NCBI RefSeq assembly: GCF_016597785.1
Contig: NZ_JAENJG010000001.1
Coordinates: forward strand, 868,001-932,000
DNA: 64,000 nt
Origin: Leucobacter sp. L43
GTDB lineage: Bacteria; Actinomycetota; Actinomycetes; Actinomycetales; Microbacteriaceae
Reading direction: 5' to 3'
A program made the position numbers and the translations under genes. Numbering within the stretch: the first letter of the stretch is position 1; each line of letters starts with the position of its first letter. Below the pieces are notes generated by a model. The model was not told the origin of the DNA and did not search any database. It saw only the letters and a program-made list of their open reading frames with translations. Positions 39,601 through 60,563 of the stretch are shown piece by piece.

Positions 39601-39631
39601 TCTCGAGCAATCGCGAATATTCCACGTATTC

Positions 39632-39649
39632 ATTCATTCATGAATGAAT
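39632..39649. promoter_or_regulatory. 18-bp palindrome ATTCATTCATGAATGAAT, candidate GntR operator
   Basis: ATTCATTCA is followed by its exact complement. It lies between the permease and the GntR gene, 149 bases before the GntR start and 141 before the permease start. The adjacent GntR protein is the obvious candidate binder. Confidence 0.5.
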
Positions 39650-39798: not shown

Positions 39799-40494
39799 AT
39801 GCCCACCCCTGACGCCGAGCACGAGCGCGATTCGTCGCTCGTCCCCCTCAAACGACCCCTGAGCCTTCGGGAGACGGTGCTGGAGCAGTTGCGCACCGCG
39901 ATCATCACCGGCCGCCTCGCAGAGGGCGAAGTGGTTTCGGCCCCGGCGCTCGGCGTCACCCTCGGCGTCTCGGCGACGCCGGTCCGCGAGGCGATGATGG
40001 ACCTGGCCCGCGAGGGGCTGGTCGAAACCCTGAAGAACAAGGGATTCCGCGTCACCACGATGAGTGAGAGCGACCTCGACGACCTCGCGCAGATCCGACT
40101 CCTGCTCGAGCCGCCCGCCATGCGACTCATCGCCGGCCGCGTTCCCGAGGCGGATCTCCCCAAGCTCCGGAGTCTCGCCGACGCCTGCTTGGAGGCGACG
40201 GATCGCGGCGACCTCGAAGAATACCTTCGCTTCGACCGGGAGTTCCACGCGCTCGTGCTGAGCTATACCGGCAATGCCCAACTCGTGGAACTCGCCACTT
40301 CCCTGCGGCGCAGAACCCGCCTGTACGGCATCGGCACGCTCTCGCGCGAGGGGCGGCTGGCCGACTCCGCCAGAGAGCATCACGAACTCATCGACCTCCT
40401 CGCCACCGGCGATGGCGCCGGCGCCGAGCGCGTGCTCGCCCGGCACGTCTCTCACGCACGCACGCTGTGGGCGACGGGACGCGATCAGCCCTGA
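39799..40494 (+). CDS. GntR-family (FCD) transcriptional regulator, copy 1
   Basis: This 231-residue protein has a winged HTH (about 22-85: RETVLEQLRTAIITGRLAEG, SATPVREAMMDLAREGLVET) and an FCD effector domain (about 95-220: DLDDLAQIRLLLEPPAMRLI, FDREFHALVLSYTGN, AREHHELIDLL). It is very similar to the regulator starting at 63551, with only a few differences through the DNA-binding core. It is divergent from the APC permease and 65 bp upstream of agmatine deiminase, so it likely controls one or both. The ATG at 39799 is a plain choice, though no strong ribosome site is visible. Confidence 0.88.
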   Translation: MPTPDAEHERDSSLVPLKRPLSLRETVLEQLRTAIITGRLAEGEVVSAPALGVTLGVSATPVREAMMDLAREGLVETLKNKGFRVTTMSESDLDDLAQIRLLLEPPAMRLIAGRVPEADLPKLRSLADACLEATDRGDLEEYLRFDREFHALVLSYTGNAQLVELATSLRRRTRLYGIGTLSREGRLADSAREHHELIDLLATGDGAGAERVLARHVSHARTLWATGRDQP

Positions 40495-47343: not shown

Positions 47344-48534
47344 CTACGCGACTCTGCGACCCGCCTGCACCACCGCCGCCCGGGCGTCCGCCTCCCACAA
47401 TGCCGCCGGTTCATGCAACGGATCGGCGGCGAGAAGGACCGCGTCGCCGTACGCTCCCGCCCGGAGGTGCCCGAGTGCCGGGTCCCCGATCAGCTCTGCG
47501 TTCACCTGAGTCATCGACCGAAGTGCGGCGGCAGCACCGCTTGCCGATACTTGGAGCCGCACGCCCTGCAGCTGGTCGTCCTCGAGGTCACCCATCAGAT
47601 CGCTCCCGAACCCGACTCGAACTCCTGCGGCGAGCGCAAGTCGCACGGCTTCCTGCCCCTTCGAGAGTACCTCGGAGTTCTTTTCGAGCGAGGTCGCGTT
47701 GAGGCCGATCTCTGCACCGCGGCGGTCCATAGCATCATAGGCGGCGAGCGTCGGCACGAGGAACGCGCCGCACGTGGCCATGAGCTCCGCAGTCTGAAGG
47801 TCGATGAGATTTCCATGCTCGATCGATCGCACGCCGTTCTCGATCGAGTGCCGCACCGCCTCTGGAGAGTAAGCGTGAGCCGCGACATAGCTCCCGCGGC
47901 GGGTTGCCTCTTCGACGACCGCGCGGATCTCCTCCGCGGAGTACTGCGGCACGCGGATCGGATCCGACAGCGAGAACACGCCGCCCGAAGTCATGATCTT
48001 GATCGCGTGCGCACCCGTTCGGAGGCGCTCGCGGACTGCAACCCGGAGTGCGTCGACCCCGTCGACCACCTCGCACATGTGCCCGTGGGAAAAACAGACG
48101 TCGATGTGCGCAGCTCGGGGGTCGCCGTGGCCACCTGTCTGACTGAGCGCGGCACCCGTGAAGTGATACCGGGGAGACGGGATGAGCCCGCGATCGATCG
48201 CTCTGGCGAGTCCGATGTCGCCCCCGGCGACGTCGCGGACGGTTGTGAACCCGCGTCGCAGAGCGCTCTCCAGCCGACGGGCGCCGTTGATCGCTGCGAA
48301 ACTCAACGGTCCCCGCTCGTTCTCAAATCCGTCCATGCTCGTGGCGTACGCGTGGAAGTGCGCATCGATGAGCCCCGGCACAGCCCAGGTGCCCGAGCCG
48401 TCGAGCGTTTCGCGCGGCCCACCGGCTGCGCGTTCTTCGCTCACGAACCCGTCGACGATATCGATGTCCCGTTCATCGAAGCCGCGACCATTCCACACGC
48501 GTGCACCGATGATTGTCAGATTTCCCTGGCGCAT
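47344..48534 (-). CDS. Metal-dependent amidohydrolase (imidazolonepropionase/prolidase-like group)
   Basis: This 396-residue barrel hydrolase has metal ligands in DAHFHAY (HxH), a candidate carbamylated Lys in HAIKIMTSGGV, His in YVAAHAYS and SIEHGNLID, and the catalytic Asp in GFGSDLMGD. The C-terminal part returns to the small beta-domain. The group includes Xaa-Pro dipeptidases and cyclic-amide hydrolases. The ATG at 48534 has AAGGGG 5 bases upstream; a GTG at 48549 is possible. It is last in the leftward hydantoinase operon, behind a very strong hairpin, so its expression may be partly separated. The precise substrate is unknown. Confidence 0.82.
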   Translation of the reverse strand: MRQGNLTIIGARVWNGRGFDERDIDIVDGFVSEERAAGGPRETLDGSGTWAVPGLIDAHFHAYATSMDGFENERGPLSFAAINGARRLESALRRGFTTVRDVAGGDIGLARAIDRGLIPSPRYHFTGAALSQTGGHGDPRAAHIDVCFSHGHMCEVVDGVDALRVAVRERLRTGAHAIKIMTSGGVFSLSDPIRVPQYSAEEIRAVVEEATRRGSYVAAHAYSPEAVRHSIENGVRSIEHGNLIDLQTAELMATCGAFLVPTLAAYDAMDRRGAEIGLNATSLEKNSEVLSKGQEAVRLALAAGVRVGFGSDLMGDLEDDQLQGVRLQVSASGAAAALRSMTQVNAELIGDPALGHLRAGAYGDAVLLAADPLHEPAALWEADARAAVVQAGRRVA

Positions 48535-48582
48535 GCGCGCCCCTTCCACTCGCTTGTTCGACTGCCTGGTGCTCGCTATCGG

Positions 48583-48625
48583 AGCAGTATCCGGGCCGCC
48601 GAGGCTCGGCGGCCCGGATACTGCT
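48583..48625 (-). terminator. Hairpin with 20-bp perfect arms at the hyuB stop codon
   Basis: AGCAGTATCCGGGCCGCCGA (48583-48602) is exactly complementary to 48606-48625 around a GGC loop. On the minus strand the 5' arm begins inside the hyuB TAG stop. There is no U-run. It can act as a terminator, attenuator or mRNA 3'-end stabiliser between hyuB and the amidohydrolase. Confidence 0.75.
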
Positions 48626-50339
48626 ACGCGGAAACGGCCGCCCGGAGCGACGCCGTTTCAACGGCGTCGACCCTGAACTGCTCGGTGACCGCTACCCCGT
48701 AATCGCGCGTTGCGGATTCGTGGGACACGAATCCATTGCGTACGTCGTGAGCGACGGCCTCCGGGTCGCGTTCGAATGGGTTGCCGTACCCTCCTCCCCC
48801 GCCGGTCTCGTTGACGAGCACGTCATCGGCATCGAGGTGGTTGTAACTGCCGCCCTGCACGACTTCGCGATCGGTGCCCGGGTTCAGCACGACCTGGTTC
48901 GGTTTGCCGGTGGCTCCCCCATCGATCGACCAGGGCTCGGTCTTGGTCTTGTACACCAGGCAGATACCGGTGGCGGGCGCCGTAAACCGATACGAGCGAC
49001 TCACGCCCACACCTCCGCGGAAGCGGCCGGCACCCCCGGTATCGGCGCGGTAGCCGTAGTGCTCGATGATCATCGAGGACTTCGCCTCGAGCACTTCCAC
49101 AGGGTTGTTTCGGCAACCCGGCTCCGACAGGTGCATGATGCCGTCCTCCCCGTCGTGCGTCGCCGTTCCGCCGAAACCGACCGCCTCGTTCGTCGCCTCC
49201 TGCCATGGTTCGCCGGTTCGCGGATTCACACCGAGCCCCATCATCGAGCAGACGTCGCCGCCCGAGCACGCCGGCACCAGTTCCGGCATGCCCTGCGCGA
49301 GCGCCTTGAGAATCACTTCGCCGGCGAGCAGGCCCGTCCACAGGGTGAACGTCGGCATCGGCGGCACCGCGTGCATCACCGAGCCGGGCACCGTCACGAC
49401 GCGCAACGGGGCGAAGTTGCCCGCGACGACGGGAGACTCGGGCGTAGTGAGCGACTTGAAGATCAAGCTCGACAGCGCCTCCGTCTGTCCTGGTGGGAGG
49501 TTGATCGGGCCCCGCACGTTCTCAGCGCTCCCCGTCCAATCGACGACCATCTCATCGTCCGTCACGGTAACGGTGCACTGCAGCTTGACGAGTTCGTCTT
49601 TCGTGATCCCGTCGTCGTCGACGTAGTCGACCGCGCTCCACGTTCCCTTCGGCAGCTTCGCGAGGGCGAGGCGCGCCAGACGCTCCCCGTGCGCGTTGAT
49701 GGTCTCCATGGCCTGAGTCAGCACCGCCACCCCGTACTTGCTCGCGAGCTCTTGCGTGCGCCGCACTCCAGTGACCACTGCGGAGACCTGCGCCTGGATA
49801 TCGCCGATCGTGTGCTTGGGCATCCGGCTGTTGAACCGAATCACGTTGAACACGTCGTCATTGCGCACCCCTCGGCGGTACAACTTCGAGGACGGGAGCA
49901 CCAGGCCCTCCTGCGAGCGGTCCGTGGAGTCGAGCACGTACCCCGGATCCTTCTGGTTGAGATCGGTCACATGGACCCGGCACGAGGCGTACCCGATGAG
50001 CTTCCCCTCAGCGTGTATCGGCGCGAAGACGAGCGGATCGAGCGTGTGCGCGCTCGACCAGTACGGGTAGTTGATGATGAAGACGTCGCCCGGCTCCATC
50101 GCATCTTCCCCGAGGAACTCGATCGAATGCTTGATGCCCGCGTCGTTGCCGCGCGTGAACACAGCGATTCCCGGCGCATCGGCAACGACGTCGCCGCGCA
50201 CGTCGTGCAGCCCGATGCCGTAGTCGTGAATCTCGTACACAACGGTGTTGTACGCCGTGCGGCAGAGATTGCGGGCGATCTCCTCCGCAGCCGCGAGCAG
50301 TCCGTGCCTGATGATCTCGGTCGTGATCGCATCGGCCAT
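48624..50339 (-). CDS. Hydantoinase/oxoprolinase subunit B
   Basis: This 571-residue HyuB-family subunit matches the group through EEIARNLCRTAYNTVVYEIHD, GDVFIINYPYWSSAHT, and the Gly-rich C-terminus GGAGRFRGGVGVSRSYRF and ETGGGGGYGNP. HyuA and HyuB together perform ATP-dependent ring opening of hydantoins, 5-oxoproline or related ketones/amides. The ATG at 50339 starts one base after the hyuA stop, so the two subunits should be made in equal amounts. The stop codon is part of a 20-bp-arm hairpin. The ring substrate cannot be read from the sequence. Confidence 0.9.
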   Translation of the reverse strand: MADAITTEIIRHGLLAAAEEIARNLCRTAYNTVVYEIHDYGIGLHDVRGDVVADAPGIAVFTRGNDAGIKHSIEFLGEDAMEPGDVFIINYPYWSSAHTLDPLVFAPIHAEGKLIGYASCRVHVTDLNQKDPGYVLDSTDRSQEGLVLPSSKLYRRGVRNDDVFNVIRFNSRMPKHTIGDIQAQVSAVVTGVRRTQELASKYGVAVLTQAMETINAHGERLARLALAKLPKGTWSAVDYVDDDGITKDELVKLQCTVTVTDDEMVVDWTGSAENVRGPINLPPGQTEALSSLIFKSLTTPESPVVAGNFAPLRVVTVPGSVMHAVPPMPTFTLWTGLLAGEVILKALAQGMPELVPACSGGDVCSMMGLGVNPRTGEPWQEATNEAVGFGGTATHDGEDGIMHLSEPGCRNNPVEVLEAKSSMIIEHYGYRADTGGAGRFRGGVGVSRSYRFTAPATGICLVYKTKTEPWSIDGGATGKPNQVVLNPGTDREVVQGGSYNHLDADDVLVNETGGGGGYGNPFERDPEAVAHDVRNGFVSHESATRDYGVAVTEQFRVDAVETASLRAAVSA

Positions 50340-50340
50340 G

Positions 50341-52386
50341 TCAGACCTCCTTCAGTTCGTTCTGGATCGAGATGACGAGTTCGCCGTACGCGCCGACCTC
50401 GAGTCGGTCTCCGGCATGGAGCACGGTCGTCGCGGTGTGCTCGGTGATGACCGCCGGGCCGTCGATGACGTCGCCCGCGAAGAGCTCCTCGCGAGCCACG
50501 AGCGCGTAGTCGCGGGTGCGGTCCCCCTCGAGCACGACCTCACGTACCCGCGTTCGCGGCCCGTCGCCGCTGCGCCGATCAATCTTCGGGATCTCAGGCT
50601 TGTCGACGACGCCGACGGCACCGAGACGCAGGGTCGTGGTCTCCACCGGGTCGTCCATCGTGTGCCCGTACTGCCGCAGATGCAGCCGATCGAACTCACC
50701 GCGAATCTCGACTCGAGGATCGGCGCTCTCGACGGGATAGTCGACGGTCACCGCGTGCTCCTGCCCGGAGTAGCGGACGGCGACGACGCGGTTGAAACGC
50801 ATGCGATCCTCGGCGAATCCTTCTGCGGCGAGGGTGGCGCGCGCCTCCGCCTCCATTCCGGCGAACAGCGCATCGGCTGCTTCGGCGTCGAGCTCGTCGA
50901 GCGCCTGAATGCTCGTCCTCGAATAGTCATGCTGCACGTCGGCCATGAGCATACCGAGGGCCGAGAACGCCCCCTGACCGGGAGGCACGATCACCTCCGG
51001 TATTCCGAGCTCACGCGCCACGTCGACCGCGACGAGACCGCCCCCGCCGCCGAACGACAGCAACGCGAAATCCTGCGGGTCGTGACCGAGTTCGATGGTG
51101 ATCGCTCGCACGGCGCCCATGATCTTCGTGTTCGAGATCTGCACCATGCCGCGCGCGAGCTGGGTCGGAGTCAGTTCGAGTTCCGCCGCGATCGGTGCCA
51201 GGGCCTCCAGCGCCCGCTCGCGATCGAGCGCGAGCTCGCCCCCGAGCGGGGTGTCGACGCCCAGGTAGCCGATCGCCAGGGCAGCATCGGTGAAGGTCGG
51301 TTCGGTACCTCCCCGACCGTACGCCGCAGGCCCCGGCATCGCACCGGCGCTCTTCGGCCCGACCTGCAGTGCGCCCGCCTCGTCGAGGTATCCGAGCGAC
51401 CCCCCGCCCGCGCCGATGGTATGGATGTACAGGGACGGCGTGTTGATCGGCAGCCCCTCGAACTCGGCACCGTGGTAGAGCACGGGAGCGCCGTTCTGCA
51501 CGAGCGAAGCATCGAGACTGGTCCCACCCATATCGATCGTGATGAGATTGGGCCGCCCGATGAGCTTCGAGAAGGCGGCCGCGCCGACGACGCCGCCGGC
51601 AGGACCCGAGAGAATGAGGTTGACCGGCTGCTCTCGCGCTGCCGACGCCGTCATAGCGCCTCCTCCGGAACGAGACATCAGGAACCGGCCGTCGAAACCC
51701 CGTTCATCGAGCTCTGATTCGAGAGCCCGGAGGTAACTGCGCATGATCGGCTTGATGTACGCATCGAGCACCGCGGTGCTCGTGCGCTCGTACTCGCGGT
51801 ACTCCCGAGAGAGATCGTGCGACAGGGTGACCTCGACATCGGGGGCCTCCTCGGCCAGAATCTCGCGCATGCGAAGCTCGTGGTCCGGGTTGGCGTACGC
51901 ATGCAGGAACGCGACGGCCACAGCTTCGTATCCGCGCGCACCGATTTCACGCGCAACTCGCCTGGCGTCCTCTTCGTCAAGCGGTATCGCGACGGACCCG
52001 TCGAACATGCTGCGCTCCACCACCTCGAACGTGTCGTACCGCTCCAGCAATGGAGCCGGCTTTCGGTAGGCGATGTCGTACATGACTCGCCGGTCGGTGC
52101 GCCCGAGCAGATAGACGTCCCGGAACCCAGCGGTGGCGACCGTGGCGATGCGGGCTCCCGTCCGGGTGAGCAGCGAGTTCAGTCCCAGCGTGCTGCCGTG
52201 GTTGAACGTCGACACCTCGCGGGTATCGGCGCCGGCCTTGTCGAATGCGGAGAGCACTCCGGAGGTGGGTTCGCTCGGAGTCGTGGGAACCTTCTCGAAC
52301 CTCAGCTCTCCGGTGCCGGGGTCGAGTTTCACGACATCGGTGAAGGTGCCGCCGACATCGACTGCGATGCGGATATGTGCTGTCAT
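50341..52386 (-). CDS. Hydantoinase/oxoprolinase subunit A
   Basis: This 681-residue HyuA-family ATPase subunit has an N-terminal nucleotide loop IAVDVGGTFTDVV (7-19). Central blocks are NLILSGPAGGVVGAAAFS and ITIDMGGTSLDASL, followed by GAGGGSLGYLDEAGALQVGP and FGGGGGLVAVDVARELG. It is the partner of the adjacent HyuB. Genes for a ribose-type ABC importer lie upstream, so a ring compound is probably imported and opened. The ATG at 52386 is preceded by GGAAGGA. Between it and the permease stop lies a 14-base G run. Confidence 0.9.
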   Translation of the reverse strand: MTAHIRIAVDVGGTFTDVVKLDPGTGELRFEKVPTTPSEPTSGVLSAFDKAGADTREVSTFNHGSTLGLNSLLTRTGARIATVATAGFRDVYLLGRTDRRVMYDIAYRKPAPLLERYDTFEVVERSMFDGSVAIPLDEEDARRVAREIGARGYEAVAVAFLHAYANPDHELRMREILAEEAPDVEVTLSHDLSREYREYERTSTAVLDAYIKPIMRSYLRALESELDERGFDGRFLMSRSGGGAMTASAAREQPVNLILSGPAGGVVGAAAFSKLIGRPNLITIDMGGTSLDASLVQNGAPVLYHGAEFEGLPINTPSLYIHTIGAGGGSLGYLDEAGALQVGPKSAGAMPGPAAYGRGGTEPTFTDAALAIGYLGVDTPLGGELALDRERALEALAPIAAELELTPTQLARGMVQISNTKIMGAVRAITIELGHDPQDFALLSFGGGGGLVAVDVARELGIPEVIVPPGQGAFSALGMLMADVQHDYSRTSIQALDELDAEAADALFAGMEAEARATLAAEGFAEDRMRFNRVVAVRYSGQEHAVTVDYPVESADPRVEIRGEFDRLHLRQYGHTMDDPVETTTLRLGAVGVVDKPEIPKIDRRSGDGPRTRVREVVLEGDRTRDYALVAREELFAGDVIDGPAVITEHTATTVLHAGDRLEVGAYGELVISIQNELKEV

Positions 52387-52521: not shown

Positions 52522-53505
52522 CTAGCGTTTTCCTCTGCCTGATGCGGCGAGGCCGACTGCCGCGAGGATGATGAATCCGGTGACCATGTCCTTGAGCTGC
52601 GGGTTCAAGTTGAGCAGGTCGAACCCGTTGCCGATCATCGCGATGAGGAACACGCCTGCGACCGACCTCCAGACCGCGCCGACGCCGCCGTAAATGCTCG
52701 TACCGCCGAGAATCACGGCAGCGATGGCGCTCAATTCAAGACCGGCGCCCGCGAGGGGTTGACCCGAGGCGATGCGGGAGACCCCGATCGCGGCCGCGGT
52801 TCCCGCCGCGAGGCCGCTGATCACGAAGACGATGATGCGGGTGCGGTCGACGTGGATGCCGGAGAGTTCCGCGGCCTCAGCATTCCCGCCGACCGCGTAG
52901 ACCCGCCGACCGAAGACCGTGCGCGACAGGAGGAACCACAGCGCCGCAACGACCGCGATCATCACGAACACGGCGACGAAAATACCGCCGACACGGTCGC
53001 GACCGAGTGCCGTGAAGCCCGGGGTCGTCACCGTGATGAGGCTTCCACCGGTGATCAGCACCGCAAGCGTCGTGAAGATCATCGATGACGCAAGCGTCGC
53101 CAAGAACGAGTGCACCCGGAGCCGGGTGATGACCACCCCGTTGAATGCTCCGAGCACCAACCCGACGAGCGGCGCCGCGAGCAACGCGATCCACACGTTC
53201 CCGATCGAGACCGCGAGCCAGGCGGCGACCACCCCCGCGACGCTGTAGATCGCGCCGGTCGAGAGGTCGAAATTCCCTGAGATGATGACGAACGTGCCGG
53301 CGGCTGCGATGATGACGAGCGGCGCATTCTGGTTCAAGATGTTGACGATGTTGCCGAACGTGAAGAACGACGGCGAGAGGATCGCGAGCGCGATCAGCAC
53401 TGCGGCCAGCAGCAGCAGCACCGCGTATTCGATCGCGAGTTCCTTCAGCGAGAACTGCTTTCGGGCGCGGGTGCGCGTCGCTGTGGTGTTGGCGGCTTCG
53501 CTCAC
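52522..53505 (-). CDS. Ribose-type ABC transporter permease (RbsC family)
   Basis: This 327-residue membrane protein has about 10 helices. Family blocks are IISGNFDLSTGAIYSVAGVV, GVVITRLRVHSFLATLASSM, FGRRVYAVGGNAEAAELSGI and AIAAVILGGTSIYGGVGAV. It forms the channel of the importer with the neighbouring ATPase and binding protein. The GTG at 53505 overlaps the ATPase stop (GTGA). A single permease gene is present, so it probably acts as a homodimer. This transporter family carries sugars, nucleosides and other small polar compounds; context suggests a hydantoin-like substrate. Confidence 0.9.
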   Translation of the reverse strand: MSEAANTTATRTRARKQFSLKELAIEYAVLLLLAAVLIALAILSPSFFTFGNIVNILNQNAPLVIIAAAGTFVIISGNFDLSTGAIYSVAGVVAAWLAVSIGNVWIALLAAPLVGLVLGAFNGVVITRLRVHSFLATLASSMIFTTLAVLITGGSLITVTTPGFTALGRDRVGGIFVAVFVMIAVVAALWFLLSRTVFGRRVYAVGGNAEAAELSGIHVDRTRIIVFVISGLAAGTAAAIGVSRIASGQPLAGAGLELSAIAAVILGGTSIYGGVGAVWRSVAGVFLIAMIGNGFDLLNLNPQLKDMVTGFIILAAVGLAASGRGKR

Positions 53506-55040
53506 GCTGCCGTCTCCTCTCGGGGGGTCACATTGAACAGTCGGTAGAGCACATCCTCGACAGTCGTGTGCTCCGGGATGATCTCGTCGAACGTGCGCCC
53601 TCCCGACACCAGGTAGGCGCGATGGGCGAGTTCCATGATCTCCTCGTGCTCGGAGGAGATCAGCAGCACCGCGATGCCCTCGGCGGCGAGTCGGGCTACG
53701 AGATCGTAAATGGTGCGTTTCGCACCGACGTCGACGCCTCGCGTTGGCTCATCCAGGATGACGACGCGGGGCTGCGCCGCGAGCGCCTTGCCGAGCAGGG
53801 CCTTCTGCTGGTTGCCGCCCGAGAACCACGAAACGGGGAGCTCGATGTCGGGTGGCCGCATCTGCAATGATTCGGCGAGGTCCTTCGCGACGCGCTTCTC
53901 GGCGCCCCGCGTGACGATCCCGTACCGCGTGCGCGCGCTCAGGCTCGACAGCGCGATGTTCTCGCGCACGGAGCGCTGCAGCACCAGGCCGTCTTTGTGT
54001 CGGTCCTCCGAGACGAGCACGAGCCCCGCTTCGATCGATTCCCGGGGTGACCGCCCCGTCCAATCCCGGCCGCCGAGCTCCACGCTGCCGCCCGCCGTCT
54101 TGTCGACGCCGAACACGGCGCGCAGGCATTCGGTGCGACCGCTGCCGACCAGGCCGAGAAGGCCGACGATCTCGCCGGGGCGCACATCGAAGCTCATTGC
54201 CGCGCCTCCCGTCTCGGTGCGCAGGTCCCGAACGCGCAGTACTGGAGGGATCGACGCGGGAGGCGCTGCACCGCGCTCGGGGAACGCCTGCTCGAGCTCC
54301 CTTCCGAGCATCGAGGTGACGATGTCGTGCTTGACCACGGTACTGGCTTGCACGCTCTCGATGCGACGGCCATCGCGCATGACCGTGATGCGGTCGGCGA
54401 CTCCCAGCACGGAATCGAGGAAGTGGGAGACGTAGATCACGCCGCACCCGCGGTCGCGGAGCGCGCGCATCAGATTCTCCAACTGGGACATCTCATGCGC
54501 GGTGAGCGAGGAGGTCGGCTCGTCCATGACGATGATCCGCGCGTTGCGCGCGAGAGCGCGGAGAATCTCGACCTTCTGCTGATCTGCGATCCGCAGATCC
54601 CGCACTCGCATCCGCGGATCGAGCCCGAAGCCGGTCTCGGCGTCGAGCGAGGCGAATCGCTCGTTCAGGTTGCGACGCTCGATTCCGAAGCGATGCTGCT
54701 CCGCTCCGAGAAAGACGTTCTGAGCGACCGTGAGGTCGGGCACGAGGGCGAGCTCCTGCGCGATCATGGCGACGCCTTGCTTCTGCGCAATGGCTGGGTT
54801 CCACTTGTCGATGACTGAGCCGTTCACGACGACGGCGCCCGCGTCAGCGGCGTACACGCCGGCGATGATCTTGCCGAGCGTCGACTTCCCTGCGCCGTTC
54901 TCCCCGACGAACGCGTGGATCTCTCCGCCTCGGATCTCGAGCGAAACGTCGTCGAGCGCCTGGGTCGCGCCGAACCGCTTATCGACGCCCCGCAGCTCGA
55001 GGAGCACCTCCTGCGCGCGGTCGCGAGTCGCTTCAGCCAT
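53502..55040 (-). CDS. Ribose-type ABC transporter ATP-binding protein (RbsA family, two domains)
   Basis: This 512-residue duplicated ATPase has domain 1 with Walker A GENGAGKST (about 46-54) and Walker B IIVMDEPTSSLTAHE. Domain 2 has the altered Walker A VGSGRTE, signature SGGNQQK and Walker B VILDEPTRGVDVG. A degenerate second Walker A is normal for RbsA-type proteins. It powers import with the adjacent permease and binding protein. The ATG at 55040 overlaps the end of the binding-protein gene by 8 bases (ATGGCTGA). The GTGA overlap with the permease shows coupling on both sides. Confidence 0.93.
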   Translation of the reverse strand: MAEATRDRAQEVLLELRGVDKRFGATQALDDVSLEIRGGEIHAFVGENGAGKSTLGKIIAGVYAADAGAVVVNGSVIDKWNPAIAQKQGVAMIAQELALVPDLTVAQNVFLGAEQHRFGIERRNLNERFASLDAETGFGLDPRMRVRDLRIADQQKVEILRALARNARIIVMDEPTSSLTAHEMSQLENLMRALRDRGCGVIYVSHFLDSVLGVADRITVMRDGRRIESVQASTVVKHDIVTSMLGRELEQAFPERGAAPPASIPPVLRVRDLRTETGGAAMSFDVRPGEIVGLLGLVGSGRTECLRAVFGVDKTAGGSVELGGRDWTGRSPRESIEAGLVLVSEDRHKDGLVLQRSVRENIALSSLSARTRYGIVTRGAEKRVAKDLAESLQMRPPDIELPVSWFSGGNQQKALLGKALAAQPRVVILDEPTRGVDVGAKRTIYDLVARLAAEGIAVLLISSEHEEIMELAHRAYLVSGGRTFDEIIPEHTTVEDVLYRLFNVTPREETAA

Positions 55041-56058
55041 TCCACTCGCCCGTGTAATCGGGGGCTGCCTCGAGATCCTCGCGGGTCACGATCGGGCCCA
55101 TGTCGATGATCGAATCCGCGTCGATGACGCTCTCGACCGTCTCGCCGCGCAGGGCGTTGACGGCCTGCTCGAGGGCCGCCGACCCCATTGACACCGGAAA
55201 ATTGAGGAAGTCGTTCGTCCAGATACCATCGCGCACCGCTTGCACCGCTTCGACGGTGCCACCGCCTCCCGTCAGGAACACGGATGCCGGATCGATGCCC
55301 GCGTTCTCCAGCGCGATCTGCGCGCCCAGCGTCTGCTGATCGGCGTTGCTCAGAATTCCATTGATGTCCGAATTCGCCTGCAGCAGATTGCTGACGGCGG
55401 TGAGCGACTGGTCGCGATCGTACGCGCCCTCAACGGTGCCGACGATCTCGATGTTGTCGTGCTGCTCGAGTACGCCTTTCCACGCGTCGACGCGCTCGAT
55501 GTCGAGCGGCGAGTTCAAGAGGCCGGCGAGCAGGCCGATCTTGCACGGATCGATGTCGGCGCAGTAGTCGACGACGGTCTCAGCCTGCAGTTCAGCGCCG
55601 TTCGCCGGTGGGGAGGCGACGGTCGACACGACGCCTTCGACTTGGGGCTCCATCTCGTTGATGTCGGGACCGATGGGATTGAGCACGCTCACGACCGGAA
55701 GATCACTGCCGAGGGGAAATGCCGCATTGAGGGCGGGCCCGTCGTGCGGCACAACGACCACCGCATCGGCCTGACCGGTCGTCCCTGCATTCTGAAGCTG
55801 CGAGAGCTGCGTATTCGCGTCGAACTGACCGTCTTGTATCTTCGTGTCGATGGTGATGCCGAGTTCGTCGGACAGCTCGGCCGCGCGTTGCTCGATGCCC
55901 TCGTACACCGCCTGGTTGTAGCCGTTCTGCGAGGACGAGGCGAGGAACACGATCGAGTAGCTGTCGCTGCTCGCACCGGAGTCGGCGCTGCAGGCGACGA
56001 GGGACGCGCCGAGGGCGAGCACTCCGGCGCCGGCCACGATTCGGGAGAGGTGCATCAT
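55033..56058 (-). CDS. Sugar-type ABC transporter substrate-binding lipoprotein
   Basis: This 341-residue protein has a lipoprotein signal ending LVAC (Cys23), followed by a two-lobed periplasmic-binding fold of the ribose/LacI type: FLASSSQNGYNQAVYEGIEQ, ADAVVVVPHDGPALNAAF, NGILSNADQQTLGAQIALEN, FLTGGGGTVEAVQAV. It should capture the solute outside the membrane for the RbsA/RbsC-like proteins. The ATG pair at 56058/56055 precedes the signal. The gene follows a small ABM-domain gene by 49 bp. The ligand is unknown, but the operon encodes a hydantoinase. Confidence 0.9.
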   Translation of the reverse strand: MMHLSRIVAGAGVLALGASLVACSADSGASSDSYSIVFLASSSQNGYNQAVYEGIEQRAAELSDELGITIDTKIQDGQFDANTQLSQLQNAGTTGQADAVVVVPHDGPALNAAFPLGSDLPVVSVLNPIGPDINEMEPQVEGVVSTVASPPANGAELQAETVVDYCADIDPCKIGLLAGLLNSPLDIERVDAWKGVLEQHDNIEIVGTVEGAYDRDQSLTAVSNLLQANSDINGILSNADQQTLGAQIALENAGIDPASVFLTGGGGTVEAVQAVRDGIWTNDFLNFPVSMGSAALEQAVNALRGETVESVIDADSIIDMGPIVTREDLEAAPDYTGEWNG

Positions 56059-56107: not shown

Positions 56108-56470
56108 CTACTCGTCCGTGAACGACTCGCTCCCGACGCCGTGATCGACGCGGTAGAGCTTCGCGACACCGACCTCGGCACCTTCCAGGAGTTCCGGGAG
56201 CTGCGGGACGCGCTTGCCGCGCTCGGGGTGATCGATCCACTCCTGATAGGCCGCTGCATCTGGCCAGAGGGCGCTGACGATGATCTCGCCACTGCCGTCG
56301 ATCGCGACGGAGATCTCCGAGCAGATCGCTCGTGTGAGGTCCAGCGACTGCTGCAGAATCTCCTGCGCTCGGTAGAGGCGCACGATCTCTTCCGAGCGGC
56401 CGGTGCGGGGTTGCAGAGTGAGGATGCTTCGAATCATGTGGTGAACTCGTACTCCGTCGTCGTCGTTCAT
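56108..56470 (-). CDS. Small ABM-like (antibiotic biosynthesis monooxygenase fold) protein
   Basis: This 120-residue protein fits the dimeric ferredoxin-like ABM/stress-response barrel fold: MIRSILTLQPRTGRSEEIVR, then SALWPDAAAYQEWIDHPERG near 65-85. Such proteins include quinol or heme monooxygenases and many with no known reaction. It is the first gene of the leftward ABC/hydantoinase operon. The start at the ATG at 56470 is weakly supported: the nearest AGGAG lies 14 bases away and can pair with CTCCT between it and the ATG. The internal ATG near 56437 (MIRSIL) is an alternative matching the domain start. Confidence 0.68.
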   Translation of the reverse strand: MNDDDGVRVHHMIRSILTLQPRTGRSEEIVRLYRAQEILQQSLDLTRAICSEISVAIDGSGEIIVSALWPDAAAYQEWIDHPERGKRVPQLPELLEGAEVGVAKLYRVDHGVGSESFTDE

Positions 56471-56524
56471 GGAGGAGGGGGCTCCTGATTTCCAGCGATA
56501 ACCTACTCCGGCGGCGCGCGCAGA

Positions 56525-56545
56525 GATTGTGCATCATGCACAATC
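56525..56545. promoter_or_regulatory. 21-bp perfect palindrome, candidate PucR operator
   Basis: GATTGTGCAT-C-ATGCACAATC is perfectly symmetric. It lies in the 98-bp gap between the ABM-ABC-hydantoinase operon (leftward) and the HyuA-like/DUF917/PucR operon (rightward), 24 bases before the latter's first codon. The PucR protein encoded three genes downstream is the most likely binder. Confidence 0.7.
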
Positions 56546-56568
56546 CAGACGGCGCGTAGAATGCAGAA

Positions 56569-57882
56569 ATGCGAATTGGCATGGCGGCCACCGCCAGTGG
56601 CACGACTGGAATCCTGATCGACGACCGGGGAAAGATCCACGAGGAGCGCGTCGAGCAGCGGGGAGCGGAACTTTCCGAGATGGTGTCCGACATTCTCCGG
56701 CGGTTGAAACGCCGGGCGGCGAGTCCCGGCACGAATCCGATTCCACAGGCGATCACCATCGATGTGAGCGACGCGCTCACACCGAACCGCTCTGCGTCAT
56801 TCATCGTCGTCCGCATCGCCCCTCGGCCTCCGGTCGATGCGGGCCATGAACTCTCGGACTCCGCCGAGAACAGGTATCGCACGCGGATCGTCCATGTCTC
56901 AGGAGGACATACGATCCTCGGAGACGAACTCGTCCCGCTCGATACCGCCGCTCTGATACGGATCGCTCGTTCAGCCGGGCGGGCGCCCAACTACGTCATC
57001 TCGGGCGTCGGGTCGCTCGTGAACCCGTCCCACGAACAGACCGCCGGACGCATCCTCCTCGAGCACTCCGAGCCGGCGAGCATTGAGTTCTCTCATCGCT
57101 TCTCGAGCAGCGCCATCGCCGTACGCGAACGAACCGCCGTGCTCAACAGTGCACTCACTCCCGGAGCGGCAGCTCTCGGCACCTCACTGGTGCTCGCGGT
57201 TGAAGCTGCGGCGCCGTTGTCACGCCTCTACGTCACCACGAACGACGGCGGATCGACGACGATCGCGCAACTCTCAGAGGCGCCCATCCATGCACTGCAC
57301 GCCGGGCGCTCAACGGAGCTCATCGGGGCCGCCGCACTGTGCGGCATCGACGATGGTGCTCTGATCGTCGATGACGGAACTGCGCCATTCTTCGGCGAGA
57401 TCATCGATGGAGTTCCGACCGTCGTCCCCACGCACCGCGCCTCCGGTCCTGCGGTCTCCACCCAGGCCGCCAATGTGAGAGGTGTCACTGATATCGAGTT
57501 GCACGGTGGCGCCGACCGACCACTCCTCGTGACCCACGGCGCCGGCGGACCGAGCCCACTCGGCCTCTCCGCCCACTCCCACGCGGACCACAGTCTTCGT
57601 GCACTCGGAGCAGCGTGCGCCCCGCTCTCCGAGTGGGCCAACCGCGTGGTCGATGTCAGCAACGCGACCGAGATGGAGCAGGCGCTCGCGAACGCCCGCG
57701 CCCGTGTGGAAGCGCGGCTCGTATCCCTCGGTGCAGTTCCCGCGAGCATCCGCATTCCCGAATCCAGAGTGATCGCGACGGCCTACCAGCATCCGCGCGT
57801 GGTGACCGTGCGGGTGCGCGGCATCGCCGGCGAGAGCACGGGCTCCATTCTGACGGGAGGTGCAGCGCGTGCGCCTCGATGA
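56569..57882 (+). CDS. Divergent HyuA-like hydantoinase/oxoprolinase-family protein
   Basis: This 437-residue protein resembles the HyuA N-terminal fold but is shorter and degenerate. The first nucleotide loop reads MAATASGTTGILIDD instead of the usual DVGGTFTD. Later blocks SGVGSLVNPSHEQTAGRILL, SRLYVTTNDGGSTTIAQL and GAAALCGIDDGALIVDDGT resemble the sugar-kinase-like core. It may be inactive as an ATPase or have another substrate. The ATG at 56569 lies 24 bases after the operator palindrome. The next gene overlaps its end by 14 bases. Such proteins commonly accompany DUF917 genes. Confidence 0.7.
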   Translation: MRIGMAATASGTTGILIDDRGKIHEERVEQRGAELSEMVSDILRRLKRRAASPGTNPIPQAITIDVSDALTPNRSASFIVVRIAPRPPVDAGHELSDSAENRYRTRIVHVSGGHTILGDELVPLDTAALIRIARSAGRAPNYVISGVGSLVNPSHEQTAGRILLEHSEPASIEFSHRFSSSAIAVRERTAVLNSALTPGAAALGTSLVLAVEAAAPLSRLYVTTNDGGSTTIAQLSEAPIHALHAGRSTELIGAAALCGIDDGALIVDDGTAPFFGEIIDGVPTVVPTHRASGPAVSTQAANVRGVTDIELHGGADRPLLVTHGAGGPSPLGLSAHSHADHSLRALGAACAPLSEWANRVVDVSNATEMEQALANARARVEARLVSLGAVPASIRIPESRVIATAYQHPRVVTVRVRGIAGESTGSILTGGAARAPR

Positions 57883-58945
57883 GCAGGATGTCTCCCACCT
57901 GCGTGCCGGCGCCCTCTTCCTCGGCTGCGCTGCCGACCACGACTGGTGCACCGAGCAGATGGATCGCACGATCGCGCACATGCGCTCGCACGAGACCGAG
58001 GCGGAACTCAGATCGGTGGAGACATTCGAGAACGACGATCTGATCATCGCACTCGGCTTCGTCAACAGCGGGCTCCCGCTCTCTGATCTCAGACCGGTCG
58101 GGGACGAATTCCTGACGAGCCTCGCACTCGTCGAGCGTGCGTTCGGACGAGAGGCCGCCGGCTTCATCCCGCTCGCGGCCGCGAACATCAACTCACTCGT
58201 TCCCGTCCTGACGTCGCTGCAGACCGGGCGACCCGTAGTGGACGCGGATCCGATGGGTCGCGTGTTCCCGTTGCTCTACCAATCGGTGTTCACATTGGAA
58301 GGCCTGTCTGCTGGACCGATCGGTGCAACGGGTCCGGCCGGGGATTCGGCATTGCTCGAGGTGTCGGACACTCGTCGGGCCGAGCGACTCGTGCGTGCAC
58401 TGGCCGGAGAGTTCGGCGGATGGGCGGCGACCGCGCTGTACCCGATGACGGCAGGAACACTCGCCAGGGCCGGCATTCTGGGAAGCGTGTCACGGATGAT
58501 ACGCATCGGAGCGGTACTGCAAGCTGCACAGCCGACGGCGGCGAAGCACGCTGCGCTGAGACGAAGCGAGGGGGTGAGGCGCATCATCCGGGCACGGGTC
58601 GCAGATGTCGCTGGCCTGTCGCGTCCGGCTCCGCCCGGCCAGCCCGACATGCCGTCGAGCGTCGTCTTCATCGAGGAGACGAGCGGGCGCATCGTGCAGA
58701 TGGAGATTCAGAACGAGTTGCTCATGGTCATGGTCGACGGCGCCGTCGTCGCGGTGATGCCCGACATCATCACGATGCTCAGGCCCGAGGATGCGAGTGT
58801 CGCGGGATTGGACGACCTCTGGGTCGGCAACACGCTCGACATCGTCGTTCTCCCCGGCGCACCGCAGTGGTACACGCCCGCCGGGATCGACCTCGTCGGA
58901 CCGGACGCGCTGCACCTGTGGCTGCGGGCGCGAGGAGGAAGATGA
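57869..58945 (+). CDS. DUF917 / S-methyl-thiohydantoin desulfurase family protein
   Basis: This 358-residue protein has the DUF917 pattern: LDEQDVSHLRAGALFLGCAA near the start, then RPVGDEFLTSLALVERAFGR, AANINSLVPVLTSLQTGRPV and VDADPMGRVFPLLYQ. The C-terminal domain carries MPDIITMLRPEDA. The family has been associated with removal of sulfur from S-methyl-thiohydantoins during breakdown of ergothioneine-type compounds, giving a hydantoin. This fits the HyuA/B genes in the divergent operon. The GTG at 57869 has GGGAGG 8 bases upstream; a GTG at 57860 is less likely. Specific chemistry here is inferred. Confidence 0.78.
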   Translation: MRLDEQDVSHLRAGALFLGCAADHDWCTEQMDRTIAHMRSHETEAELRSVETFENDDLIIALGFVNSGLPLSDLRPVGDEFLTSLALVERAFGREAAGFIPLAAANINSLVPVLTSLQTGRPVVDADPMGRVFPLLYQSVFTLEGLSAGPIGATGPAGDSALLEVSDTRRAERLVRALAGEFGGWAATALYPMTAGTLARAGILGSVSRMIRIGAVLQAAQPTAAKHAALRRSEGVRRIIRARVADVAGLSRPAPPGQPDMPSSVVFIEETSGRIVQMEIQNELLMVMVDGAVVAVMPDIITMLRPEDASVAGLDDLWVGNTLDIVVLPGAPQWYTPAGIDLVGPDALHLWLRARGGR

Positions 58946-60423
58946 TGCGACCGAACTCGCACGGGCTCGTCGAGCTCCGCGACCTCGCAGAGTCTTCGGA
59001 CTTCGAAGATCTCGTCACCCTGCACCTCGCCGACCCGCGCAGCCCGGTGCGCGAGCTCGCACTGGTCACCGACATCGAGGAGATGACGTCGGTGGGACCG
59101 GACACGCTGATCATGCTGACTCAGGAGGTGGCGCGCGGCGGATGGATGATCTCGGCGGCACTCCGCTACGCCTGGGAACGCCGAGCCTGCGCCCTCATCG
59201 TGCCGCACCAGGCGTTCACCGGGAGTGTCATCGATCTGGCGGAGCGTCTGGGTGTCTCACTGTTCACCACCGACATCGACATCCGCACCCTGGCCATCAG
59301 AACGGCGATCCACGTCGGGGTCGCGCGAGCCGATTCTCTGGCTCGATTGCACCGCTTCGCGACGAGAGTCTCCCTCTCAGCTGACATTCCTGCAGCCCTG
59401 GCGACGATCTCTGCGGAGCTGGAGGGCGCTCGCGTCGCTGTCCGTCTGGACGGGGGCGCAGTCCGATTCAGCACACCGGCCGAGCCGCACCCTCATCCCG
59501 GGAGTACCCGGGTGTGCGTTCCGCTCTCATCTCGGCCCCGCCCCGACCACCTCGTCGCGGAGACGCAGGACCCCGAGCGGATGCGAGCCGAGCAGGTGCT
59601 CGCGGCGGCCTCGCCGACGATTCGCGCGCTTCTGGCTGAAGAGCGCTTGAGTGAAACCGAGGCCTCGCTGCCGACGCTCTCGGTCGCGGCCCTGACCGGT
59701 CTCATCACCCCCGGCGGCGCGATCGACTCCGTCGGGAGTGACGTCGCGGCCGAGTTGGGATGGTCGATCGACGGCGATTATTTCGTGGTGTTCTTCGCCT
59801 CATCGTCTCAGGGCCGGATGGGCGCTGCAGTGCGTCAATTGTGGAACGACGTGTTCGGGCAACTCCCGCTCGCACGGATCGAGGACGGTTGGTTCGGCTT
59901 CGTTCCGAGCTCGGATGAGCATTCGCGCAGTGGCTTCGTCGCTGAGCTCCGATCGCACAGGCTGCGCCTGCAGGCGTTCGACCTCGCCGCAGGCGTGTCG
60001 GACGTGCTGACGGACATCGAGCATGCGGCACGTGGGCTTCGCGAGGCGTCGCTTGCGGCACGTCTGGCCACGAACGAGGCGCTCTCGGTTCCTGCGATCG
60101 TGGAGTTCTCAGAGATCACGGCGGAAATTCTCCCGCGGGTGCTGCCGGGTCCTCTCGCGGCGCAACTCGCCAGCACGTTGCTCCCCGACCTTCTCGCCGA
60201 TCCCGCGACGAATGAGCTCGTCGATGCTGTGCTGGCGTACTTGGATCACCGCGGCTCGGTCTCGTCTGCGGCCGAACGCCTCGGAGTCCATCGCAACACA
60301 CTGCAGGCACGGTTGGCGCGCGCCCAGCAGACGGGCGTGTCGCTTTCGGATCCGCAGTCGGTACTGCCGATGCACCTGCTCCTCGCGGCCCTGAAGCGCA
60401 CCCGGGGCCGCCCAGCGGACTGA
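58945..60423 (+). CDS. PucR-family transcriptional regulator
   Basis: This 492-residue regulator has an N-terminal PucR sensor domain (about 15-125: LHLADPRSPVRELALVTDIE, TLIMLTQEVARGGWMISAAL). A GGDEF-like middle region follows (about 265-380), then a C-terminal PucR helix-turn-helix (AYLDHRGSVSSAAERLGVHR then NTLQARLARAQQ). PucR proteins control purine, allantoin and related nitrogen-ring catabolism. The start at the ATG at 58945 overlaps the DUF917 stop by one base, with AGGAGG 6 bases upstream; the ATG at 58942 adds one Met. It probably controls both divergent operons through the 21-bp palindrome. Confidence 0.88.
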   Translation: MRPNSHGLVELRDLAESSDFEDLVTLHLADPRSPVRELALVTDIEEMTSVGPDTLIMLTQEVARGGWMISAALRYAWERRACALIVPHQAFTGSVIDLAERLGVSLFTTDIDIRTLAIRTAIHVGVARADSLARLHRFATRVSLSADIPAALATISAELEGARVAVRLDGGAVRFSTPAEPHPHPGSTRVCVPLSSRPRPDHLVAETQDPERMRAEQVLAAASPTIRALLAEERLSETEASLPTLSVAALTGLITPGGAIDSVGSDVAAELGWSIDGDYFVVFFASSSQGRMGAAVRQLWNDVFGQLPLARIEDGWFGFVPSSDEHSRSGFVAELRSHRLRLQAFDLAAGVSDVLTDIEHAARGLREASLAARLATNEALSVPAIVEFSEITAEILPRVLPGPLAAQLASTLLPDLLADPATNELVDAVLAYLDHRGSVSSAAERLGVHRNTLQARLARAQQTGVSLSDPQSVLPMHLLLAALKRTRGRPAD

Positions 60424-60484
60424 GCCGCTTCCGCATGCAGGCCGATGATCCGCCCACCGGCTCCACCCCCGGCGGAAATCGCAG

Positions 60485-60538
60485 TTGACGGACCCGCCCC
60501 CGAGCGTGGTACCGTGTGCAATGTCACACTGCAGTGAC
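60485..60538 (+). promoter_or_regulatory. Promoter with overlapping inverted repeats before the hydroxyproline-type operon
   Basis: TTGACG (60485-60490) and TACCGT (60510-60515) are 19 bases apart. Overlapping the -10 is GTGTG-N6-CACAC (60514-60529), followed by the palindrome CACTGCAGTG (60527-60536). Binding there would block transcription. The GntR regulator at the end of the operon is the likely binder. Confidence 0.5.
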
Positions 60539-60563
60539 TCGATCGCAGCCCGAAAGGACCCCC

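Follow-up and report, generated by a model that had tools for sequence, protein, structure and literature searches.

The region between two divergently oriented operons of Leucobacter sp. L43 contains the 21-bp palindrome GATTGTGCATCATGCACAATC, which raises the question of whether this sequence is an operator and, if so, which protein binds it and which genes it controls. It is located in the 64,000-nt stretch of DNA analyzed here (the window) between a leftward gene with a conserved ATG at 56437 and a rightward gene starting with an ATG at 56569. The exact symmetry noted in the initial annotation was confirmed, as the two 10-nt arms are fully complementary around C56535. By itself, such a palindrome is weak evidence. 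Four palindromes having arms of 10 nt or more and a spacer of 0–1 nt were present in the window, compared to an expected mean of 0.63 in 30 order-1 simulations; palindromes of this size are thus not rare by chance, and the case for an operator must therefore rest on comparison, that is, on conservation. No second copy with up to three mismatches was present in the window or in the 3.15-Mb genome. With the same tolerance, the 17-bp core gave five genome matches per strand including its own site, compared to 12 for a backwards control pattern, and because they were fewer than with the control, the weaker matches look like chance. We rejected an RNA hairpin or terminator at the palindrome because a loop of 1 nt is too short for a hairpin and because nothing resembling a terminator was found at 56400–56700. 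A recognizable sigma-70 -35/-10 pair was likewise absent from this interval.

The features of the region are listed in Table 1. The genes for p120, the ABC importer, HyuA, HyuB, and the amidohydrolase likely form a single left operon. Further out, hydroxyproline-type genes and two FCD-GntR genes are located on either side of both operons. The two FCD-GntR genes (39799–40494 and from 63549) are similar to each other, and one of them adjoins hydroxyproline-type genes in several relatives. Upstream of the gene at 39799, the palindrome ATTCATTCAT-TC-ATGAATGAAT (39628–39649) is a candidate GntR operator. A 43-bp perfect palindrome at 48583–48625 (21-nt arms, 1-nt center) spans the HyuB stop codon and precedes the amidohydrolase gene; within the left operon, it might form a hairpin for processing or termination.

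Table 1. Features of the two divergent operons and of the region between them (positions refer to the window).
Feature	Position	Strand	Remarks
Amidohydrolase	47344..48549	-	closest model in NCBIfam: Xaa-Pro dipeptidase (score under cut-off)
HyuB-type subunit	48624..50339	-	
HyuA-type hydantoinase/oxoprolinase subunit	50341..52386	-	
ABC permease	52522..53505	-	BPD_transp_2
ABC transporter ATPase	53502..55040	-	
Sugar-type ABC substrate-binding protein (SBP)	55033..56058	-	Peripla_BP_4
p120, small conserved protein	56108..56437	-	109 aa from conserved start; opens the left operon; M-[IFY]-R-S start in relatives; no Pfam or NCBIfam match
Leftward -10 box TAGGTT	56500..56505	-	first base 30 nt from operator center; TANNNT at +30 in 15/15
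Proximal operator, 21-bp palindrome	56525..56545	.	core TGTGCA-N3-TGCACA; center C56535
Rightward -10 box TAGAAT	56557..56562	+	6 nt before ATG 56569
Distal half-site TGCA	56562..56565	.	site center about 56567, 32 bp from proximal center
HydA-like protein	56569..57882	+	437 aa; opens the right operon; weak Hydant_A_N match slightly below cut-off
DUF917 / S-Me-THD-like protein	57860..58945	+	
PucR-type regulator	about 58945..60423	+	proposed binder; GGDEF-like + HTH_30

Related loci were searched with the HydA-like protein. At an E-value of 1e-3, matches were obtained in 54 of the 299 family genomes, six of which, including L43 itself, were below 1e-100. Alignments at 1e-20 were found in 12/54 genomes of the genus, in 2/5 genomes of the genus of G244, and in 3/396 genomes of the order, the genome of L43 being counted in the genus and order figures. 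Four further loci at this threshold came from GTDB contigs, two of which (L056 and L057) coincide in place with G085 and G230. Overall, 21 loci including the window and two named plasmids, i.e., 23 clusters, were examined.

A TGTGCA-N3-TGCACA-like site centered exactly 30 nt before a TANNNT box, and thus on the side of the -35 region, was found at 15/15 p120 promoters including that of the window, a count that is inflated by kinship (G326 and G311 are nearly identical) and that leaves out L088, L089, and G336. The contigs of G230, G332, and G339 end short of the p120 promoter, and G003, G368, and L059 gave no p120 match. Nine genomes share the divergent arrangement of the window, and TANNNT was present at +30 to the left of the center in 9/9, these sites having been anchored by eye with the -10 box in view. 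In G300, G324, G333, G439, and L058, p120 follows PucR instead; here the sites were chosen by the GTGCA-N3-TGC core, and TANNNT was again present at +30 in all five. In G129, the site was the top match within 40 kb of a position weight matrix (PWM) built from the nine divergent regions; it is located 78 bp before the p120 match and has TAGCTT at +30. The operators of G085, G301, and G313 are degenerate, with PWM scores of 12.6–15.2 compared to 27.1 for the window, and the proximal p120 site of G439 was not the best match of its own 200-bp zone (see below). In L43, the leftward transcription start is predicted near 56493, which would place the operator center at about -42. These comparisons indicate that the palindrome is a real control site conserved in many relatives.

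The PWM was also scanned over 11 other loci of 19–40 kb, in which the 200 bp upstream of the p120 and HyuA starts were defined as zones. Scores of at least 12 were reached at 13 of 4,221 zone positions compared to 9 of 256,625 background positions. When the best site in each of the 21 zones was considered, TANNNT was located at +30 in seven, at +62 in six, and at +61 in one; six of the seven remaining zones belonged to second HyuA genes or to HyuA within an operon, with scores of at most 1.5, and one was that of L059. As 62 is the sum of 30 and 32, the best site in the +62 zones is the distal member of two sites spaced by 32 bp; the proximal member scores lower and occupies the usual position. 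At nine of the 11 HyuA promoters in the split arrangement (G300, G324, G332, G333, G439, G003, G368, L088, and L089), the -10 box is located exactly 30 nt from the proximal center (TAACGT in G368), and at the other two (L058 and L059) it is one base off. The proximal HyuA site amounts to hardly more than a half-site in G300, G324, and G332 (scores -1.5, -1.4, and 4.8), and the one-base-off site of L059 is only the second-best match. Alignment A3 leaves out G368 and the HyuA promoters of L058, L059, L088, and L089. Two Micrococcaceae plasmids outside the PWM training set followed the same rule. On p232 of Arthrobacter sp. Rue61a, the top-scoring position among about 29,000 was located 84 bp upstream of HyuA and had TAGCGT at +30. 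On pYJN5-3 of Paenarthrobacter sp. YJN-5, the two highest scores belonged to sites upstream of HyuA that are spaced by 31 bp, and the nearer of them, which ranked second, had TAGCGT at +30. The Arthrobacter-type plasmids encode a GAF-domain protein after HyuB (L088 22152–22607, L089 23088–23540), and no p120 counterpart is annotated there. In L078, L079, L081, L084, and L058, the HydA-like gene is preceded upstream by an additional HyuA/HyuB set in divergent orientation; such sets mostly come with SBP and ABC genes and have their own operator upstream of HyuA.

A second element was found on the other side of the palindrome. The sequence TGCA occurs at center +27 in 9/9 divergent regions, forming a half-site 32 bp, or three helical turns, from the proximal operator, and together with the +62 mode (6/21 zones) this reveals a second upstream site in phase with the first one. 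With the exception of G439, non-divergent p120 promoters have at most a weak distal half-site. In L43, it overlaps the rightward -10 region and start, and the transcript of the right operon is likely leaderless with a predicted start at 56569. A rightward TANNNT box six nt before the ATG is present in 4/9 divergent regions; in G301 and G313, TANNNT is located six or seven nt before an ATG further to the right, and in 3/9 no rightward TANNNT was found.

With respect to the protein that binds these sites, the initial annotation had suggested the PucR gene of the right operon, and its product emerges as the best candidate. It matched the C-terminal HTH of PucR proteins (PF13556/HTH_30; E 2.7e-14, 53.2 bits, cut-off 27) and the GGDEF-like domain (PF17853; E 5.6e-10, 39.9 bits, cut-off 24.5); the N-terminal PucR domain PF07905 was not found at E 0.001. 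The protein is termed PucR-type rather than PucR because the family call rests on HTH_30 and the GGDEF-like domain. Orthologues were present in 23/23 clusters, the copy of G230 being cut by the contig end, and all 22 with a readable HTH have H-R-N-T in the recognition helix. The gene of G325 was missed by tblastn, yet G325 contains a 487-aa ORF that includes the HTH. This linkage is partly built in, since the seed gene belongs to the operon of the PucR-type gene. A counter-search with HyuB gave matches of at least 76% identity in 13/54 genus genomes; 12 of them carry the HydA-like gene, and in the thirteenth, the fragmented assembly G336, a PucR orthologue is located on another contig. In G301 and G313, which have the two lowest-scoring of the nine operators, the helix reads IHRNTVK[QL]RL compared to VHRNTLQ-RL in most others. 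This covariation of operator and recognition helix is suggestive, but phylogeny could explain the pattern and it was not counted. In the genome of L43, a promoter profile composed of 21 sequences, the window's own among them, had a single match, which was this promoter, with 150 of the 525 first-look candidates scored. The proposed genome-wide search for the site thus recovered its own promoter and no further regulon site within this set. Of the anticipated PucR regulon with a defined operator, the operator stands, whereas the single match, as expected for a local regulator, points to a local circuit instead of a genome-wide regulon.

Two other kinds of protein were considered as binders. If the operator belonged to one of the flanking GntR/FCD regulators, it would couple the hydantoinase operons with hydroxyproline catabolism. 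Both flanking genes encode local FCD-GntR proteins, FCD-GntR repressors bind short palindromes, and a relative of the two is located near the cluster in G014, G326, G332, G301, G313, and G339. However, tblastn with both GntRs (E 1e-8) gave no match in the 20–40 kb around G244, G085, G129, G003, G439, G368, L058, and L059, although these eight clusters all have the operator (L058 also at p120; L059 with the -10 box one base off), and the feature tables of L088 and L089 show PucR-type genes and no GntR. A relative of the two GntR genes thus did not turn up near the site in eight clusters, and none is annotated in two plasmid stretches. In addition, the position at -42 suits an activator, and the DapA promoter region (60410–60540) contains no inverted repeat of at least 7. 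We therefore regard a GntR operator as unlikely. Global regulators, for example CRP/GlxR-type proteins with the consensus TGTGA-N6-TCACA, might be attracted by the superficial TGTG...CACA likeness of the palindrome. Yet the spacing here is TGTG-N7-CACA, one less than in that consensus, the relatives keep TGCA and not TGTG/CACA, and a single genomic site is ill-suited to a global regulator. Thus, even though a GlxR site has been reported at gabT in C. glutamicum (PMC7652997), binding by such a protein is highly improbable.

Two further readings concern the function of the site. The palindrome could be an operator of the PucR-type protein that serves chiefly for autorepression of the right operon, the spacing to the left being incidental. 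It does overlap the rightward -35 region, and the start coincides in part with the half-site, but the spacing that is constant in 15/15 is the one to the left -10 box, even where the right operon sits elsewhere, which makes this reading very unlikely. The number of comparable palindromes expected per window and the fact that the window's site scores highest among the nine divergent-region copies could be taken as signs of a chance sequence without function. This is already contradicted by a place and core kept over 15 p120 promoters and the HyuA promoters of other families, so that the probability of mere chance is close to nil.

In the best reading, which we consider probable, the PucR-type regulator uses the palindrome as its proximal operator; it would exert class II activation of the left operon and probably limit the right operon. 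Class II activators sit near -42. The proposed mechanism builds on the site, the fixed spacing, the second half-site, the conservation, and the gene linkage visible in the sequences, and it makes proposals on the binder, the direction of control, the oligomer, and the ligand. A PucR dimer would bind TGTGCA-N3-TGCACA centered at about -42 of the leftward promoter and recruit RNA polymerase as a class II activator of p120-SBP-ABC-HyuAB-amidohydrolase. A second pair of PucR subunits at the half-site 32 bp upstream would stabilize binding, and a small-molecule substrate of the pathway would probably convert the bound PucR into its activating form. As the half-site is located over the rightward -10 region and start, the same complex would limit transcription of the HydA-like, DUF917, and PucR genes, resulting in negative autoregulation. 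The initial annotation had assigned control of both operons to the site. It is indeed conserved and placed for both, with a fixed spacing on the left (15/15), which points to activation from about -42, and a half-site over the start on the right (9/9); activation of the left operon is the better supported part compared to autorepression of the right operon, which we infer from the position of the half-site.

Several related systems are described in PMC7652997 and PMC11617747. GabR of C. glutamicum, a local activator of the PucR type, binds upstream of the -35 region of gabT to a pair of 21-bp inverted repeats located between -87 and -23, and strong binding requires both (PMC7652997). Like the present system, it combines an actinobacterial PucR-type local regulator with 21-bp palindromic site(s) in a divergent region. 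It differs in governing GABA genes and, as described there, in being without the GGDEF-like domain, which occurs in about half of the PucR family (PMC7652997); the comparison concerns the layout. AdeR and PutR of Bacillus subtilis are also PucR-type activators with palindromic sites, of 24 and 17 bp (PMC7652997), but they serve other substrates in another phylum and are compared here by type of site. PucR of B. subtilis shares the family name and has activator and repressor roles, whereas its own site was reported to be non-palindromic (PMC7652997). As the initial annotation had stated, few PucR-type sites are known, those of GabR, AdeR, PutR, and PucR being described in this source. MabR (Rv2242, PDB 9f80) has GGDEF-like and HTH_30 domains like the present regulator and forms dimers and tetramers, with recognition helices one turn apart that fit adjacent major grooves and a palindrome (PMC11617747). 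It differs by a Globin N-terminus and by its role in mycolate gene regulation (PMC11617747), and its sequence match to the present protein is weak (E 0.004). No paper on the present operator was found among the open-access papers searched. There are good grounds to regard it as a new instance of an established type of switch, the PucR-type activator site.

The nature of the ligand was approached via the encoded enzymes. HyuA and HyuB had their best scores against caprolactamase CapA/CapB models, the amidohydrolase against Xaa-Pro dipeptidase, and the DUF917 protein against S-methyl thiohydantoin desulfurase; each of these scores fell far short of the curated cut-off. The ligand was initially expected to be of the hydantoin type, an expectation that is not borne out by these scores: hydantoin is a family label here, and the ligand may be a different compound. 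DUF917 genes are reported to be enriched near hydantoin-type genes and are called uncharacterized (PMC11055893). The genes of the two operons are predicted to serve the breakdown of ring-shaped amides. The model scores and the adjoining hydroxyproline-type genes suggest a cyclic prolyl amide as one possible substrate, and a cyclic-dipeptide or lactam route is possible for the genes at 47344–52386. A more far-reaching model, which we offer as speculative and rather doubtful, is that a PucR tetramer bridges the -42 operator and the -74 half-site on its own leaderless -10 region and start codon, being an activator and at the same time a lid on its own gene. Instead of a hydantoin, the signal would then be a cyclic prolyl or hydroxyprolyl amide (e.g., a diketopiperazine); HyuAB would open its ring, the Xaa-Pro-dipeptidase-like amidohydrolase would cleave the product, and the neighboring hydroxyproline-type genes would take over from there.

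In summary, a defined operator, a spacing rule, and a phased second site are readable across at least three families (f1, f6, and f7). The binding, the activation mechanism, and the ligand of a GGDEF-like PucR-type protein thereby become directly testable, and the operator can be used to flag members of an uncharacterized HyuAB pathway.
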